Part shown: positions 2,876 to 14,676 of the stretch, piece by piece
How positions within the stretch are numbered: the stretch's first letter is position 1
Layout: each line of letters starts with the position of its first letter
Source: Natronorubrum sediminis
GTDB lineage: Archaea > Halobacteriota > Halobacteria > Halobacteriales > Natrialbaceae
Direction: 5' to 3'
DNA: 64,000 nucleotides
Assembly: GCF_900108095.1 (NCBI RefSeq)
Contig: NZ_FNWL01000001.1
Coordinates: forward strand, 806,001 to 870,000
Notes under the pieces: model-generated
Told to the model about the DNA's origin: nothing
Seen by the model: only the letters and a program-made list of their open reading frames with translations
Databases searched by the model: none
Translations under genes and position numbers: made by a program

Positions 2876-3943
2876 ATGGAATCGACTCCCTTCGACTTCG
2901 ATCACCTCACAGAATTGACTGAAACGAGTGGCGTCCCCGGTTACGAGGACCGAATTCGCGACCTCGTCATCGAGGACCTCGAGGAGAGCGTCGATCGGGT
3001 CCGAACCGACGCGATGGGGAACGTCGTCGGGACGCTCGAGGGCGAGTCCGATCACTCCATTGCCGTCGCGGCGCACATGGACGAGATCGGATTTATGGTT
3101 CGCCACCTCAAGGGCGGCGAGGACGGCTTCGGATTCGTCGAACTCGACGCGCTCGGGGGCTGGGATGCGCGAATTCTCAAAGCCCAGCGGGTGACGATCC
3201 ACACGGACGACGGCGACCTGCCGGGAGTGATCGGCTCACCGCCACCGCACACGCTGACCGACGAGCAACGCGAGAAGACCCCTGACGTAGAAGACGTCGT
3301 CGTCGACGTGGGCCTCCCCTACGAGGATCTCGAGGAACGCGTCTCGCCGGGCGACCTCGTCACGATGGATCAAACGACCGAACGCGTCGGTGAGACGGTC
3401 ACGGGCAAAGCCTTGGACGACCGCGTCTGCCTGTTCGCGATGCTCGAGGCCGCGCGCCGACTCGAGAACCCGGACGCGACGATCCACTTCTGTGCGACGG
3501 TTCAGGAGGAAGTCGGCCTCCGCGGTGCGCGGGCACTCGGCGTCGACGTCGACCCAGACCTCGCCATCGCACTGGACGTGACCGTCGCGAACGATGTCCC
3601 CGGATTCGAAGACGGCAAGCACGTCACCGACCTCGGTGAGGGGACGGCGATCAAACTCAAAGACGGCAGCGTCATCACGAACCCGAAGGTCCACAAGCGA
3701 CTGCAGTCGGTCGCCGAAGACGAGGGTATCGACTATCAACACGAGATTCTACCCGCCGGGGGCACCGATACGGCCGGCTTCCAGTTCCCCGCCGGAGCCA
3801 AGCCCGTCGGCGCGATTTCGGTGCCGACACGTTATCTCCACACCCCGACCGAAGCCGCCCACGTCGACGACGTCGCGGCGACGATCGACCTGCTCGAGGC
3901 GTTCCTCGCCAGCGAGGACGGTGAACACGAGTACACGCTGTGA
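2876..3943 (+). CDS. M42 family zinc aminopeptidase
   Basis: A 355-residue tetrahedral-aminopeptidase (TET/glutamyl aminopeptidase) homologue of the cytoplasm that trims peptides after proteasome or Lon cleavage. Zinc and catalytic residues are visible: AAHMDEIG (H67, D69), the VQEEVGLRGA block with the catalytic Glu pair near residues 211-212, GGTDTAG near 295, and the final His in LHTPTEAAH. Full length for the family. A TATA box at the right distance suggests leaderless monocistronic transcription. Sugar-hydrolysing (endoglucanase-like) annotation of M42 members is historic and less likely. Confidence 0.92.
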   Translation: MESTPFDFDHLTELTETSGVPGYEDRIRDLVIEDLEESVDRVRTDAMGNVVGTLEGESDHSIAVAAHMDEIGFMVRHLKGGEDGFGFVELDALGGWDARILKAQRVTIHTDDGDLPGVIGSPPPHTLTDEQREKTPDVEDVVVDVGLPYEDLEERVSPGDLVTMDQTTERVGETVTGKALDDRVCLFAMLEAARRLENPDATIHFCATVQEEVGLRGARALGVDVDPDLAIALDVTVANDVPGFEDGKHVTDLGEGTAIKLKDGSVITNPKVHKRLQSVAEDEGIDYQHEILPAGGTDTAGFQFPAGAKPVGAISVPTRYLHTPTEAAHVDDVAATIDLLEAFLASEDGEHEYTL

Positions 3944-7005: not shown

Positions 7006-7593
7006 GTGGTGCAAAAACAACAATCTGATAGTATCGATTCCGGAGACTCACTATCGAAGGGTGAAGTTTTCGAAGTATTACGTAACCAGCGACGACGCTA
7101 CGTCCTGCAGTATCTCCAGCAGGATTCCCGCCCCGTCGAACTCGGTGATCTCGCCCAGCAAGTCGCCGCCTGGGAGTACGAAACCACGCTCGAGGAAGTC
7201 ACGCCTGAACAACGAAAGCGCGTGTACACGACCCTCCAGCAGACGCACTTACCGAAGATGGACAAATCGGGGATTCTCGAGTTCGACTCCGACGACGGCG
7301 TCATCGAAGCGACGGATCGGGCCCAGGATATCAGCATCTACCTCGAGATCGTTCCCGGCCACGAGTTCGCCTGGCGCGAACTCTACCTCTCCCTCGGTGC
7401 GATTTCTGGCGCGCTCGTCGCTGCACTCTGGCTCGAGATTTACCCGCTGACGATCTTTTCAGATCTCGCGTGGCTGGGGATCACCGCTGCAACGTTCACG
7501 GTGACGGCGATCGTCCACAGTTATTACGAACGAAATATGCGACTCGGCCACGGTGATCAGCCTCCGGAACTCAGCTACGGAAGCGACAACTAA
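7006..7593 (+). CDS. DUF7344-type winged-helix membrane protein
   Basis: A 195-residue protein with an N-terminal winged helix ([20 protein letters not shown], then the alpha-helical region ending near [17 protein letters not shown]) of the haloarchaeal DUF7344 kind. Two hydrophobic segments follow in the C-terminal half (about residues 126-145 and 148-167), so the DNA-binding part may be membrane-anchored. The start is one of two consecutive GTG codons (7006/7009). It is probably a regulator; neither target nor signal is visible. There is no obvious operon partner. Confidence 0.75.
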
Positions 7594-7757
7594 GGCGGAC
7601 TGTTGTCCCTGTTTACCGGTGGAACTGCGGATGGATCGCGGTTGCACCAGTACCGACTGTTAGGAAACCGTATGACACTACGTCGCGATATCACGATCGA
7701 TCATCCGTGGCTCGAGTGTATCGTCAAGTTTTACTCGACGACCACCAGACCCACGAC

Positions 7758-8327
7758 ATGGATCAGTTGAAGCGGTCGCTTCTCGACGCCCCGATCATCG
7801 AGAAAAACGGTTATCACTACTTCGTCCACCCGATTAGCGACGGCGTACCAAAACTCGACCCCGGCTTGCTTCGGGAGATCGTCATTCGAATCATCCGAAA
7901 AGCGAAACTTGAGGAAGTCGATCGAATCGTCACGCCGGCCGCGATGGGCATCCACATTTCGACGGCCGTCTCGCTGATGACGGACATTCCACTGACGGTC
8001 ATCCGAAAGCGCCAGTACGGACTCGACGATGAGGTCGCTATCTCCCAACAGACGGGCTACTCGGAGAACGAGATGTACATCAACGACGTCCGCGAGGGCG
8101 AACGCGTGCTCGTCCTCGACGACGTGCTCTCGACGGGCGGAACGCTCGCGTCCGTGCTCGAGGCCCTCGATGGGATCGGTGCCGAAGTCGTAGACACCGT
8201 TGCGGTGATCAAGAAAGTCGGTGGCGAAAACAAGGTCGCAGACGAAGGTTATCGCGTCAAAACGCTGATCAACGTCGACGTCGTCGACGGTGAGGTCGTC
8301 ATCGTCGACGAGAACGGCGACTCGTAA
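7758..8327 (+). CDS. hpt: hypoxanthine/guanine phosphoribosyltransferase
   Basis: A 189-residue archaeal-type PRTase that converts purine bases plus PRPP to nucleotides (purine salvage, cytoplasm). The PRPP loop [14 protein letters not shown] lies near residues 118-131, and the family N-terminus [20 protein letters not shown] marks the start at 7758, rather than the in-frame ATG 51 bases upstream. Sequence and length fit the haloarchaeal Hpt group, which resembles adenine PRTases; the exact base preference (Hx/Gua) is assigned from the family. Confidence 0.9.
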
Positions 8328-8628: not shown

Positions 8629-10293
8629 ATGCCATCACACGGATCGAATGATGACGGCGATATTAGTCGGCGACCATTACTCAAAGGTCTCGGTGCAGCG
8701 GGTCTAATCGGTCTCGCTGGCTGTATCTCCGAAGAAGGTGACGTCGAAGCAGACAATGCAGCAGAGGAACTCATCGCGGAAGGGTTCGAAGAAGAAGGTG
8801 TCGAGCCACCGTTCGAGACGACGGTGTACGCGAACTCGGACAGTTCCGACCGAATCGCCTACGGCGAACTCATTCAAAACGAACTGAACGAGACCGGATT
8901 CTTCGACGTTTCCTTCGAAGATATGGAGTGGGGCTCATATCTCGACTTCATGAACAGCGTTGCTGAAGAGGAAGAAAATGCCCTCCTCTGTAGCGGTCAC
9001 GCCGCGGACTGGGACCCACACGTGTTCATGAACAACCCGTATCACTCGAGTGCGCACTCGCCAAGTGGGATCAACACGAATCACTTCGAGGACGAAGAGT
9101 ACGACGACCTGGTCGACGAAGGAGTCGAAGAGTCGGACCAGGAAGCGCGACAAGATATCTATGCAGATGCACAGGAACGACTCGTCGAACTCTCCCCCGT
9201 TGCACTCATTCAATTCGGCGAACAGGTAACTGCCTGGAACGACGACGAAGTGAGCGGGTTCAAGACGCATCCGATGGCGGGACGTGAGTTCACCGCAGTG
9301 TACGCGCCACACGAGGGAGTGTACACGGAAGTCGACAACGATGATGACGAGCTTCGTGTCGATCTCGGCTCCGACGTCCCCGACTTCGATCCGATCAGTC
9401 AGGAGGACACGGTCTCGCTCATGGCGACCACGCTCGTGTACGAGAGCCTCATCGCCGTCGATTTCGCCGGTAATCCACAACCCGGTCTTGCGACGGATTG
9501 GGAGCAAGAAGACGACACGACCTGGCGGTTCTACCTCCGCGAAGGCGTCGAGTTCCACAACGGTGACGAGTTCACCGCACACGACGTCCAGACATCCTAC
9601 GAGCGCTACGAGGGCGAATTTCGCGAGTCGGACGTTTACGACTGGTACGAAGGCAGCGAGATCGTCAACGACCACGAAATCGTCATTGAACACCACCGAG
9701 ACTACAGTGGACCGTTCGAGGCGACTGGTGCCGGTGACGTCCCAATCGTCCCAGAAGGTGCCGAAGATGGCGACGTCGACCTCTCCGACGGCCCGGTCGG
9801 GACCGGTCCGTACCAATTCGACGAACATCAAGAAGACGACCGATTCGTGATCGAACGCTACGACGACCACTGGTACTCGGGCGACGAGTACGACAACGAT
9901 GTCCCCGAAACCCCACCGGTCGAAACGGTCGTCATGGAAGTTATTCCGGAAGGCTCCTCTCGTCACCAGGCACTGGAGGTTGGCGACATCGACCTCAGCC
10001 AAGGACTTCCAGCCGAAAGTGTCGCCGAGTTCGAAGACGACGACGACTTCGACATCGACGGCGCACTCGGCCTCACGAACGAATACCTGACCTTCCCACT
10101 CTGGCAGGAGCCGTTCAACAATCCGAAAGTCCGCCGCGGAATCAGCGGTCTGATTCCACGCGAGACGATTATGGACAACGTGTTCCACGACGTCGGAGAA
10201 CTGGCGTACACGCCAATTTCCCCGATTCTGGAAGACTTCACTGGAACGGACTATCAGGACGATCTCGCTGAGGAATACCTCGAAGTACAGTAA
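8629..10293 (+). CDS. peptide/oligopeptide ABC transporter substrate-binding lipoprotein, apparently circularly permuted
   Basis: A 554-residue family-5 solute-binding protein (DppA/OppA-like) exported by Tat and lipid-anchored: twin arginine R14-R15 in DISRRPLLKGLG and lipobox LAGC at 29-32. The order of the mature domain is unusual. Residues 44-227 (AEELIAEGFEEEG ... MEWGSYLD ... DWDPHVF ... AVYAPHEG) correspond to the part that ends normal DppA proteins. Residues 241-554 (LRVDLGSDVPDFDP ... GVEFHNGDEFTAHDV ... PVGTGPYQF ... NPKVRRGI ... PISPILEDF) correspond to the part that begins them, and stop where the C-lobe would follow. It heads a five-gene Dpp operon. Recognition of the family is secure; the permutation is a by-eye alignment. 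Confidence 0.9.
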   Translation: MPSHGSNDDGDISRRPLLKGLGAAGLIGLAGCISEEGDVEADNAAEELIAEGFEEEGVEPPFETTVYANSDSSDRIAYGELIQNELNETGFFDVSFEDMEWGSYLDFMNSVAEEEENALLCSGHAADWDPHVFMNNPYHSSAHSPSGINTNHFEDEEYDDLVDEGVEESDQEARQDIYADAQERLVELSPVALIQFGEQVTAWNDDEVSGFKTHPMAGREFTAVYAPHEGVYTEVDNDDDELRVDLGSDVPDFDPISQEDTVSLMATTLVYESLIAVDFAGNPQPGLATDWEQEDDTTWRFYLREGVEFHNGDEFTAHDVQTSYERYEGEFRESDVYDWYEGSEIVNDHEIVIEHHRDYSGPFEATGAGDVPIVPEGAEDGDVDLSDGPVGTGPYQFDEHQEDDRFVIERYDDHWYSGDEYDNDVPETPPVETVVMEVIPEGSSRHQALEVGDIDLSQGLPAESVAEFEDDDDFDIDGALGLTNEYLTFPLWQEPFNNPKVRRGISGLIPRETIMDNVFHDVGELAYTPISPILEDFTGTDYQDDLAEEYLEVQ

Positions 10294-10314: not shown

Positions 10315-11262
10315 ATGTCTCTTTCACGCTATATACTAAAGCGGGTTCTCGTCACGATACCAGTTCTGTTCGGTGTCTCAGCGATTACGTTCTCGTTCAT
10401 TCACATCGCACCGGGCGACCCGGTCGACATGATCGCTGGTTTCGGTGACGTCGACGAAGAGGTCCTCGATGGAATTCGAGAGGATTACAACCTCCATCTT
10501 CCTCTTTGGGAACAGTACCTGCTCTGGTTACAGGACGCGTTGTTGCTCGATTTCGGTGAATCGCCAATCACTGGTAGAGATGTCGGCGCATCGATCGCCG
10601 CTCGACTGCCACACACGATTCTCCTCGGTGTCTCGGCGTGGGTTCTCGCACTCGGGATCGGTATCCCGACGGGGATCATCGCCGCAGTCAAGCAGGGCGA
10701 AACTGCAGACGAAGTCAGCCGAATCGCTGCACTCGCTGGTATCGCAACGCCGAACTTCTGGCTCGGTCTCGTGTTGTTGTGGATCTTCAGCGTTCACTTC
10801 GGGTGGTTCAGCGTTATTCCGCCGGACGCGCCGCTGTTGAGTTTCAGCACGCTCTGGTTCATGATCCTCCCGACCATCACACTCGGGACAGCATCCGCCG
10901 CACTCATCACGCGACTGATGCGGTCGTCGATGCTCCAGGAACTGAACAAGGACTACGTCCGAACCGCACGAGCGAAAGGGTTGCGCGAGCGGACGGTCAT
11001 CCTCAAACACGTGCTGCGTAATTCGTTGATCGCAGTCGTGACCGTCGCCGGATTACAGATCGCGTTCCTCATCGACGGCGCAGTCGTCGTCGAGGAGGTC
11101 TTCGCCTGGCCGGGAATGGGGCGATTGCTCGTCGGCGCGATCTTCGAGCGTGACTTCCCCATCATCCAAGCCGGCGTATTGTTGATCGCAGTCACGATCA
11201 TCGTCGCCAACCTGATCGTCGATATCATCTACTCGTATCTCGATCCACGAATTCGATATTAA
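10315..11262 (+). CDS. peptide ABC transporter permease, DppB type
   Basis: A 315-residue membrane subunit with an N-terminal transmembrane segment (LSRYILKRVLVTIPVLFGVS), the family word FIHIAPGDPVDMIAG, and five further helices. The cytoplasmic EAA-like loop is in the DYVRTARAKGLRERTVILKHVLRN region near residue 220, where it would dock on the ATPases. It pairs with the next gene to form the channel. It lies 21 nt after the binding-protein gene in the same operon. Confidence 0.92.
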   Translation: MSLSRYILKRVLVTIPVLFGVSAITFSFIHIAPGDPVDMIAGFGDVDEEVLDGIREDYNLHLPLWEQYLLWLQDALLLDFGESPITGRDVGASIAARLPHTILLGVSAWVLALGIGIPTGIIAAVKQGETADEVSRIAALAGIATPNFWLGLVLLWIFSVHFGWFSVIPPDAPLLSFSTLWFMILPTITLGTASAALITRLMRSSMLQELNKDYVRTARAKGLRERTVILKHVLRNSLIAVVTVAGLQIAFLIDGAVVVEEVFAWPGMGRLLVGAIFERDFPIIQAGVLLIAVTIIVANLIVDIIYSYLDPRIRY

Positions 11263-11264
11263 TT

Positions 11265-12290
11265 ATGAGCCAACGACAACCAACGACACAACGTGGTCGA
11301 ATCCGCATTACTGGGTTCGACGAAGCGGTCGCCGACCAGACGGACACCGAGGTCTGGGACGGCGAATCGGAAAGTAGCGGACGCAGTCGCCTCGAGTACG
11401 CCTGGCTCCGATTCAAATCGAATCGAACGGCGTTATTCGGGATGCTAATTATTGCCGTGATGGCGGTTCTCGCCATCTTCGCCCGTCCGATCGAGGTGTC
11501 GACGATGGGCTATCAGATCACGCTGCAGCCGATTTCGCTCGCACCGTTCGGTCCGAACGAGATGTACGTCGGCGAGGCGAACGAGGCACCGTCGTTCGCA
11601 CATCCGTTCGGGACGGACTGGGCAGGGCGTGATATCTTCTCCCGCGTCCTCGTCGGCGGACGACTCAGTCTGAGCATCGGATTTATCGCCGTCGTGCTCG
11701 CGTTAGTCGTCGGAATCCCGCTTGGCGCAGTTGCGGGCTACTTCGGCGGCTGGATCGACGAGGTCATCATGCGAATGATCGACATGCTCTACGCGTTCCC
11801 GTTCCTGGTCCTGGCAATCGCCATCGTCGCGATTTTCGGATCCGGATTCTGGGTGATTATCTTCGCGCTCGTCGTCACGGGGTGGCTGAGTTACGCCAGA
11901 CTCTTACGCGGGGAAATACTCTCCGTCAAAGAAAACGAGTACGTGCTGGCCGCGAAAGCACTCGGCTCCCCGGACCGAATTATCGTCTTCAAACACATCG
12001 TCCCCAACGCGATGGCACCCGTCATCGTTCAGGCAACGCTCAACATCGGGACGATCGTGCTCGCGGCCGCAGCGCTCGGATTCCTGGGCATCGGCCTCGA
12101 GCCAGGGAGCGCCGAATGGGGGTCGATGCTCTCGAACGGACGCGATTCGATCGTCTACGGCCACTGGCACATCACGCTCTTCCCCGGGGGTGCGATCTTC
12201 CTGTTCGTGATGGCCATCAACCTGGTCGGTGACGGTATCAACGACGCACTCGATCCGCAAGGAAACGCAGCAAAAGAGAGGATGCGATAA
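11265..12290 (+). CDS. peptide ABC transporter permease, DppC type
   Basis: A 341-residue permease with a longer cytoplasmic N-terminus (about 55 residues) before the first membrane helix and a roughly 45-residue extracytoplasmic loop holding HPFGTDWAGRDIFSRVLVGGR, the DppC/OppC signature. The EAA loop is ENEYVLAAKALGSPDRIIVFKHIVPN near residue 235. The gene begins two bases after the stop of the DppB gene, so the two are probably coupled. Confidence 0.92.
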   Translation: MSQRQPTTQRGRIRITGFDEAVADQTDTEVWDGESESSGRSRLEYAWLRFKSNRTALFGMLIIAVMAVLAIFARPIEVSTMGYQITLQPISLAPFGPNEMYVGEANEAPSFAHPFGTDWAGRDIFSRVLVGGRLSLSIGFIAVVLALVVGIPLGAVAGYFGGWIDEVIMRMIDMLYAFPFLVLAIAIVAIFGSGFWVIIFALVVTGWLSYARLLRGEILSVKENEYVLAAKALGSPDRIIVFKHIVPNAMAPVIVQATLNIGTIVLAAAALGFLGIGLEPGSAEWGSMLSNGRDSIVYGHWHITLFPGGAIFLFVMAINLVGDGINDALDPQGNAAKERMR

Positions 12291-12292
12291 CA

Positions 12293-13336
12293 ATGTCACT
12301 ACTCGAAGTGGAAGATCTCGTCGTACAGTTCTACACCGAAGACGGGGTGGTCCGCGCAGTCGACGAACTCAGCTACGAGATCGAACGCGGCGAAAAGTAC
12401 GGTATCGTCGGCGAAAGTGGCGCCGGAAAGAGCGTCACGAGCCTCTCGCTGATGCAACTGATCGAGAGCCCCGGCGAAATCGTCAGCGGCGAGATTCGAT
12501 TCAAGGGGCAAAATCTCCTCGAACTGTCCGAGAGCGAGTTGCGGGACATCCGCGGGAACGACATCGCGATGGTGTTCCAGGACGCAGAAACCGCACTCAA
12601 CCCCGTCTACTCGGTTGGCGAACAGATCGCCGAAGCGATCCGCACGCACAAGGACGTAACCGACGAGGAGGCCAAAGAAGAGACGATCGAACTCCTCGAG
12701 CGCGTCGGCATTCCCGACGCGTCGGCGCGCTACTCGGACTATCCCCACGAGTTCTCCGGCGGGATGCAACAGCGAGCCGTCATCGCGATGGCGCTGTCGT
12801 GCGACCCGGATCTCCTGATCTGTGACGAACCGACGACGGCACTCGACGTGACGATCGAAGCCCAGATTCTCGAGTTACTCGACGAACTCGCGTCGGACTT
12901 CGATACGGCGATCCAACTGATCACGCACGACCTCGGCGTCGTCGCCGAGCTCTGCGATCGAGTGATGGTCCTCTATGCAGGACAGGCCGTCGAGCGAGCG
13001 CCCGTCGAGGAGCTCTACTACGAGCCAAAACACCCCTATACGGTTGGGTTGATGGCGTCGATTCCGCGAATTGGAGACGAACGCGAGGAGTTAACGACGA
13101 TTCCCGGGGCGATGCCCGACCTCATCGACGTGCCGACGGGGTGTCGGTTCCATCCGAGATGTCCCTACGCCGAAGACGTCTGTATGAAGCGCGAACCGCC
13201 ACTCATGGACACGGACGAAGAGGTAGTCGCCGACGACGCAGAAAACACCGATCACGTGGCGTCCTGTCACGAATACACCGGCGAACTCGCGACCGGATTG
13301 GATTACGATATCGACGTCCGAGGTGAGTCCCAATGA
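12293..13336 (+). CDS. peptide ABC transporter ATP-binding protein, DppD type
   Basis: A 347-residue ATPase with Walker A GESGAGKS, signature FSGGMQQR, Walker B LLICDEPTTALD and the H-loop ITHDLGVV. The C-terminal oligopeptide-transporter domain carries four cysteines, C284, C290, C297 and C325 (CRFHPRCPYAEDVC ... SCHE). In a mycobacterial homologue such a set binds a 4Fe-4S cluster. The gene starts two bases after the DppC stop and overlaps the following ATPase gene by four bases. Confidence 0.93.
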   Translation: MSLLEVEDLVVQFYTEDGVVRAVDELSYEIERGEKYGIVGESGAGKSVTSLSLMQLIESPGEIVSGEIRFKGQNLLELSESELRDIRGNDIAMVFQDAETALNPVYSVGEQIAEAIRTHKDVTDEEAKEETIELLERVGIPDASARYSDYPHEFSGGMQQRAVIAMALSCDPDLLICDEPTTALDVTIEAQILELLDELASDFDTAIQLITHDLGVVAELCDRVMVLYAGQAVERAPVEELYYEPKHPYTVGLMASIPRIGDEREELTTIPGAMPDLIDVPTGCRFHPRCPYAEDVCMKREPPLMDTDEEVVADDAENTDHVASCHEYTGELATGLDYDIDVRGESQ

Positions 13337-14676
13337 GTGAGCATTCGGGAGAGCCACTCCTCGAGATCGAAGGGTTAGAGAAGTACTACACGACCAATGA
13401 CGGCTTCCTCGATCGGTTCCTCGGAGGCCAAGAGGAAGTCAAGGCCGTCGACGGCGTCGACCTCGAGATTCACGAGGGGGAGACCCTCGGCCTTGTCGGC
13501 GAGAGTGGCTGTGGAAAGAGTTCGCTCGGTCGCTCGCTCGTGCAACTCACCGAGCCGACAGGTGGATCGGTCAAATACCGCGGCACCGAGTTGACCGAAC
13601 TCTCGCGAAGGGAGATGCGAGATATGCGGACGAACATCCAGTATATCTTCCAGAATCCGTTCGCGAGTCTGAACCCGCGGCTGACGATCAACGACATCGT
13701 CGGCGAAGCGCTCGACGTCCACGACATCCTCGAGAGCGACGACGAAGACGATCGATCGCAGTCTGAGCGACGAAACGAACGAGTCGAAGAACTCCTCGAG
13801 ACCGTCGGCCTCAAAGCGAGTCACGCCAACCGGTATCCACACGAGTTCTCCGGCGGGCAGCGCCAGCGGATCGGAATCGCCCGCGCGCTGGCCGTCGAAC
13901 CGGAGTTCATCGTCTGTGACGAGCCGGTTTCCGCACTCGACGTCTCGGTTCAGGCGCAGATCCTGAACCTGCTCAACGAGCTTCAAGAAGAGTTCAACCT
14001 CTCGTATCTCTTCATCGCACACGACCTCTCGGTCGTCGAGCACGTCGCGGATCGGATCGCCGTGATGTACCTCGGTAACATCGTTGAAACCGGCGACCCG
14101 GAGGAGGTGTTCTCCGGCGACTCACACCCCTACACGGAGGCGTTGCTCTCCGCGATTCCCGAACCCGACCCGCTGTGGGAAGGCGACCGCGTCATCCTCG
14201 AGGGAACCGTTCCCTCGCCGATCGACCCGCCATCGGGCTGTCGCTTCCACACTCGCTGTCCGAAAGTCATTCCGCCAGCGGAGTTCGAGTTCGACCAGGA
14301 CGCCTTCCACAGCGTGTTCACCTTGCGACTCCGACTCGCCGACGCCGAAGCCGGCCTCGAGTCGGTCCTCTCAGAGCCTGCGGAGGCAGCGGACGTTCCG
14401 ACGGCGATTCGCGACGAATTCGGAATTCCACATCAACTTCAGGACGCGCGTGCGGAAGAAATCGTCTCGGAGACGCTCGAGGAGATCGCCACAGACGACA
14501 TCGAGCGCGCACGGGAACGACTCGAGTCGGCGTTTACGACGCCGTGTGAGACGGACCGTCCGACCCTCGAAGCGGGGGAGAAACACCATCCGATCGCGTG
14601 CCACCGGTTCGACGCTGCGTACGCGGACGCCGTCGACGAACCACCGGAAGCACTCGCTCCAGAAATCGACCGATGA
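13333..14676 (+). CDS. peptide ABC transporter ATP-binding protein, DppF type, with inserted helical segment
   Basis: A 447-residue ATPase, about 100 residues longer than typical DppF. Walker A GESGCGKS, signature FSGGQRQR and Walker B FIVCDEPVSALD are intact. The C-terminal cysteine motif is split: C303 and C309 (CRFHTRCP) are separated from C405 and C423 by about 95 charged, probably helical residues that contain no cysteine. It starts within the DppD stop (ATGA overlap) and is itself overlapped by the next gene, so all are co-translated. Confidence 0.92.
   Translation: MSEHSGEPLLEIEGLEKYYTTNDGFLDRFLGGQEEVKAVDGVDLEIHEGETLGLVGESGCGKSSLGRSLVQLTEPTGGSVKYRGTELTELSRREMRDMRTNIQYIFQNPFASLNPRLTINDIVGEALDVHDILESDDEDDRSQSERRNERVEELLETVGLKASHANRYPHEFSGGQRQRIGIARALAVEPEFIVCDEPVSALDVSVQAQILNLLNELQEEFNLSYLFIAHDLSVVEHVADRIAVMYLGNIVETGDPEEVFSGDSHPYTEALLSAIPEPDPLWEGDRVILEGTVPSPIDPPSGCRFHTRCPKVIPPAEFEFDQDAFHSVFTLRLRLADAEAGLESVLSEPAEAADVPTAIRDEFGIPHQLQDARAEEIVSETLEEIATDDIERARERLESAFTTPCETDRPTLEAGEKHHPIACHRFDAAYADAVDEPPEALAPEIDR

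Follow-up and report, generated by a model that had tools for sequence, protein, structure and literature searches.

The window, a 64,000-nucleotide stretch of the Natronorubrum sediminis genome, contains an intact operon in the order substrate-binding protein (SBP), permease, permease, ATPase, ATPase. The first gene encodes a predicted lipoprotein in which the two sections of a family-5 binding protein appear in exchanged order. The features are listed below, with the evidence for each in parentheses.

8629..10293, + strand: gene for a family-5 substrate-binding lipoprotein of 554 aa in circularly permuted form (Pfam and PDB matches; 35 of 391 genomes with a full-length permuted match)
8629..8724, + strand: Tat signal peptide (RR, residues 14-15) with the lipobox LAGC at its end (sequence; R14, R15, G31 and C32 unchanged across 14 orthologues)
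8758..9309, + strand: former C-terminal section, residues about 44-227, directly after the lipobox (Pfam, PDB, section models)
9310..9348, + strand: linker, residues 228-240, joining the old C-terminus to the old mature N-terminus (compared with the termini of ordinary-order orthologues, e.g. L140 and L142)
9349..10290, + strand: former N-terminal section, residues about 241-554, last residues PISPILEDFTGTDYQDDLAEEYLEVQ (Pfam, PDB, section models)
10315..11262, + strand: permease, DppB/OppB type (BPD_transp_1; used for the independent tree)
11265..12290, + strand: permease, DppC/OppC type (BPD_transp_1, OppC_N)
12293..13336, + strand: ATPase, OppD/DppD type (ABC_tran, oligo_HPY)
13333..14676, + strand: ATPase, OppF/DppF type, 447 aa

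The coordinates, the length of 554 residues, the Tat motif (RRPLLKG), the lipobox and the other motifs quoted in the sequence-only reading were all found as described there, and its section borders agreed with those obtained here to within a few residues. The protein met the criteria for a Tat-exported haloarchaeal lipoprotein, a twin arginine and a lipobox cysteine, and Cys32 is the expected site of lipid attachment. Two genes upstream of the operon, at 7006-7593, lies a gene for a DUF7344 (PF24035) protein, followed by a purine-type phosphoribosyltransferase gene (7707-8327).

The only Pfam match of the window protein was SBP_bac_5 (PF00496), with a score of 207.7 bits against a cut-off of 32.4. 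Residues 283-551 aligned with profile positions 2-273, while residues about 53-142, tested alone, aligned with positions 273-365. The same exchange was seen when PDB chains were searched with phmmer. Residues 247-537 matched positions 51-336 of 5u4o_A (i-E 4.8e-27) and residues 44-195 matched positions 349-488 of the same chain (i-E 1.5e-10); 6ofq_A, 8ay0_A and 3m8u_A also gave two-block matches in exchanged order. The arrangement of the SBP_bac_5 family, N-terminal before C-terminal section, was thus not met in either the Pfam or the PDB matches, which makes the protein a permuted variant of family 5 rather than a standard member. DppA, OppA, NikA and HbpA have both sections and the operon type in common with the window protein, but in ordinary family-5 members the N section comes first and here it comes last. 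The central claim of the sequence-only reading, that the C-terminal section precedes the N-terminal one, was therefore upheld. It would have been overturned by a complete binding protein within residues 241-554 or by an alignment of all segments in the ordinary order. Neither was found at the sequence level: residues 241-554 form an incomplete family-5 protein that stops at position 273 of 368 in the profile, residues 44-227 supply the C-terminal part that it lacks, and the blocks were exchanged in both databases.

The order was the same in a 97% identical copy from a second genome of the genus and held in 12 additional orthologues with 40-49% identity, so that neither chance nor an assembly fault can account for it. 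A search of haloarchaeal genomes for the same order had been proposed along with the original claim; in a class-wide draw of 391 genomes, at a threshold of E below 1e-180, the 35 with full-length matches to the permuted alignment A1 in a single open frame included the window's own. A single-protein search of genome contigs returned one distant homologue in ordinary order, and no usable relatives were found among viral contigs.

The criteria for a Dpp/Opp-type ABC importer were satisfied, the binder being adjoined by a pair of BPD_transp_1 permeases and a pair of oligo_HPY ATPases. Neither the binder nor the permeases nor the ATPases reached any of the NCBIfam equivalog cut-offs listed for named Dpp/Opp/Nik systems. 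The importer is inferred to be of the Dpp/Opp type from its operon, with no specific substrate assigned. Unpermuted counterparts exist in related families. Ordinary-order orthologues (L140-L149) occur in genera that belong to a different family within the order (f5), and L150-L155 are additional ordinary-order relatives. In genome G075 the entire operon is orthologous to that of the window (61% and 61% identity for the permeases, 73% and 64% for the ATPases), but its binder is in ordinary order, with an N section 44% identical to that of the window protein. The G075 proteins (L024 and L040) and L140-L149 are the closest ordinary relatives of the group of permuted proteins to which the window protein belongs and, unlike the window protein, have the canonical order and canonical termini. 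That permuted and ordinary binders are both found beside closely related permeases suggests that the importer may work with either form.

When proteins were sorted by section order, using two section models built from relatives of both orders, three recurring permuted groups were distinguished. In type A, which includes the window protein, a helix stands at the new N-terminus, and in types B and D (the latter about 650-700 aa long) it is found at the new C-terminus. In the window protein, the helix-like segment AAEELIAEGFEEEG opens the former C-terminal section; in ordinary proteins it follows the N-terminal section. Across the cut region the ordinary protein L140 reads ISPLLDDYSSESFQAEMREKYQGYDPERARELLADGFDALGISPPYETS, and its ISPLLDDYSSESFQAEMREKYQ-GYDPERARELLADGFDALGISPPYETS is uninterrupted at the site that is cut in type A. 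In the permuted protein L016, ISPLLEAYSDETFQETIADEYVRQN is at the C-terminus and AEKLIKAGFAETGVEPPFRTT is at the N-terminus behind the lipobox. Judged from these comparisons, type A is cut immediately ahead of the helix-like segment. In L041 (G074:C138), an open reading frame of 667 aa, the C-terminus is formed by the beginning of the N section, which implies a third kind of cut, inside an N-lobe insertion loop, although this is a single case from one incomplete genome.

The junctions were informative about the route of origin. The linker of L016, VYAPWAGTYTELDDGSEFVGDLGSDIATTDP, resembles an ordinary C-terminus, IYAPWADAYTTVGGG, followed by a mature ordinary N-terminus, ELVATLGADVKNYDP. The join in type D is plainer than in type A: L042 has YAPEDEQVSWLDRD...DLQEGGTLRIGAGANVDSFDP, and the matching ordinary ends are YSPTEEQVIYLERDE (L046) and DLQEGGTLRGAVGANVASFDP (L033). 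In the proposed route, an ordinary family-5 gene would have been duplicated in tandem and in frame, the C-terminus of the first copy fused to the mature N-terminus of the second, and the outer parts lost, with a signal peptide retained in front. Tandem duplication, fusion in frame and trimming would be expected to produce junctions of this kind, and to this extent the mechanism assumed in the sequence-only reading, duplication followed by loss of the outer halves, fits; this remains an inference, and neither a tandem gene nor a half-gene intermediate was found. Among the long stop-to-stop frames (800-1000 aa) for which matches were counted, each had one N and one C match and no tandem copies, except for L174, where the N match was in two pieces. 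A split gene, L158 (G212:C5), was considered as a half-gene intermediate and rejected; the break, at about 3088-3105, contains CTGTCTCTTATACACATN, which we take to be a transposase adapter sequence, so that an assembly fault has probably made one gene mimic two half genes. Separately, two family-5 matches had in-frame stops, G064:C1:410258-411382 (L172; TAG) and G043:C1:777943-778935 (TGA), and the N and C parts of L172 are in two separate frames.

Permutation was common. Of the 85 family-5 genes in 17 haloarchaeal genomes, 34 (about 40%) were permuted, as were four of the eight in the window's own genome. The sample was small, drawn by the tool, with six genomes from one genus, and the 85 genes were counted by hand. 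The 34 were genes that ended early in the profile; 18 had the C part upstream in the same frame, and the remaining 16, examined one by one with the two section models, proved to be permuted. The 51 ordinary genes were called from profile coordinates and not every one was read. Type B proteins also occur on alphaproteobacterial plasmids, classified directly in Nitratireductor, Maritalea, Neorhizobium and Ketogulonicigenium, and single-piece matches covered 92-98% of a permuted query in Roseomonas and Microvirga; the bacterial occurrence is based on plasmid records. A different arrangement was observed at G000:C1, about 406200-412400 (L006 and L007), and on a Natronorubrum bangense plasmid (L106), where tandem permuted binders alternate with PAP2-type phosphatase genes (SBP-PAP2-SBP-PAP2), with no permease or ATPase match within the fetched stretch. 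The PAP2 name was taken from the record in Natronorubrum and from motifs recognized by eye in the window's genome.

The number of origins was estimated from trees of the binder and of a neighboring gene that was not rearranged. In a 95-row tree of both sections, placed in canonical order, type B (34 rows) formed one clade (SH-aLRT 96), while types A and D and L041 were in another clade (100) together with ordinary proteins. The same mix of permuted and ordinary proteins was seen in trees of the N section only and the C section only. For the binder, AU tests rejected a single clade of A and D (p 1.3e-4; p 1.2e-12 with a set containing more ordinary relatives) and a single clade of A, B and D (p 7.2e-6). 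In the permease tree, A was one clade (88) and B was one clade (100); A+D (p 7.9e-4) and A+B+D (p 2.1e-8) were rejected, and B+D was weakly rejected (p 0.034). Type A as one clade gave an AU p of 0.025 and a difference of 9.6 log-likelihood units, leaving one versus two origins undecided. The AU tests were carried out on subsets smaller than the full 95 rows and, because the groups were named with the first tree already in view, the p values err somewhat on the optimistic side; despite this, the log-likelihood gaps in the two main tests were large (154 and 325 units). Parsimony on a 127-row tree required eight changes among four states, although seven may be nearer, since L157 was assigned to the after-helix state by a length threshold and its tail resembles the before-helix form. 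A permuted pair from other genera, L173 and L174 (G104 and G102), cut before the helix, stands beside the ordinary protein L171 on long branches and is possibly one more origin. It is well supported that permutation arose at least three times, in types A, D and B, and more than three origins are likely. With the roots uncertain, a few ordinary-order lineages could be reversions. The family-5 proteins of haloarchaea are thus inferred to have been rearranged repeatedly, mostly around one helix. Neither this recurrence nor the commonness of permutation in the family was foreseen in the sequence-only reading.

As the sequence shows, the product of the window gene has, in order, the Tat signal and lipobox, the helix-like segment and C-terminal section, the short linker and the N-terminal section. 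It would be exported via Tat, anchored through lipid at Cys32, fold into the usual two-lobed family-5 binder and pass its ligand on to the two adjacent permeases. These latter steps are inferred, and no three-dimensional model supports the fold; AlphaFold2 run on the single sequence without an alignment gave a pLDDT of 33. In family-5 structures, both old termini are on lobe 1. By the published family-5 topology the permutation cut should fall in domain III (lobe 2). In a product that keeps the fold, the new termini would therefore lie on lobe 2 and the lipid anchor would have shifted there from lobe 1, in keeping with the change of anchor position raised in the sequence-only reading. With high confidence, in the absence of expression or binding data, the window protein is interpreted as the permuted ligand-catching lipoprotein of a dipeptide/oligopeptide-type ABC importer, belonging to a family in which permutation has recurred, by inference through duplication.

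Several alternatives remain to be weighed. The first concerns only the cause and is compatible with this interpretation, namely that permutation is neutral: duplication and trimming are frequent, the fold tolerates new termini at this place and no advantage is needed. It is moderately favored, since closely related operons are served by ordinary and permuted binders and a short linker suffices for the old termini, but a permuted fraction of this size and the reuse of one region may point to a benefit. A recurrent adaptive permutation, in which selection in tethered Tat-exported lipoproteins favored the move of the anchor from lobe 1 to lobe 2, with one surface helix preferred for the new termini and convergence in several transporter lineages, can be advanced only tentatively. 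In the N-termini examined for the alphaproteobacterial type B proteins no lipobox was recognized, so that anchoring may not fully explain type B. A single ancient permutation, inherited by every permuted family-5 protein of haloarchaea, with some lineages going back to the ordinary order later, could draw on the monophyly of type B and on the proximity of every frequent cut to the same helix, yet it is very improbable: 1) it was rejected by the AU tests on both binder and permease, 2) the cuts differ, with the helix N-terminal in A, C-terminal in D and B, and the cut in the N-lobe insertion in L041, and 3) each return would have had to rebuild canonical termini. An ordinary-order family-5 protein with an unrelated additional N-terminal domain, which the low score of the C section alone (22.9 bits, under the Pfam gathering cut-off) might have allowed, is already refuted at the sequence level, because that section aligns with the C-terminal part of several PDB chains, scores 184 bits against the C-section model built from relatives of both orders, and is the missing part of the same family, profile positions 274-368 being absent from the N section.

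A natural permutation of an ABC-importer binding lipoprotein has a precedent in TpMglB-2 (Tp0684), the glucose-binding lipoprotein of Treponema pallidum, for which the designation 'Type Ic / Cluster Bc' was proposed; it has relatives in Gram-positive bacteria, and its authors raised tethering as a possible reason (PMC4990184). The two proteins differ in that TpMglB-2 is a Type I/cluster B sugar binder of treponemes and Gram-positive bacteria, cut elsewhere, with N-lobe strands moved, whereas the window protein is a haloarchaeal family-5 protein with a Tat signal. Membership of Cluster Bc, which requires Type I/cluster B homology, was not met, SBP_bac_5 being the only Pfam match. When three permuted proteins were used to query the PDB, none of the best 60 matches listed per query showed the permuted order, and a search of open-access literature, in which hits were judged by title and abstract and subscription papers were not covered, gave no report of a permuted binder of family 5, of the dipeptide-binding kind, of cluster C or from haloarchaea.

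Accounts of natural circular permutation usually treat it as a rare event that happened once. The recurrence found here is within one transporter family, in which closely related permeases are served by ordinary and permuted binders. Annotation is also affected, since a standard profile sees permuted family-5 proteins as truncated, the C section of the window protein alone falling below the Pfam cut-off. As a natural experiment, the family bears on protein topology, on folding and on the geometry of the tether, and the same importer may be tested with both forms of its binder.
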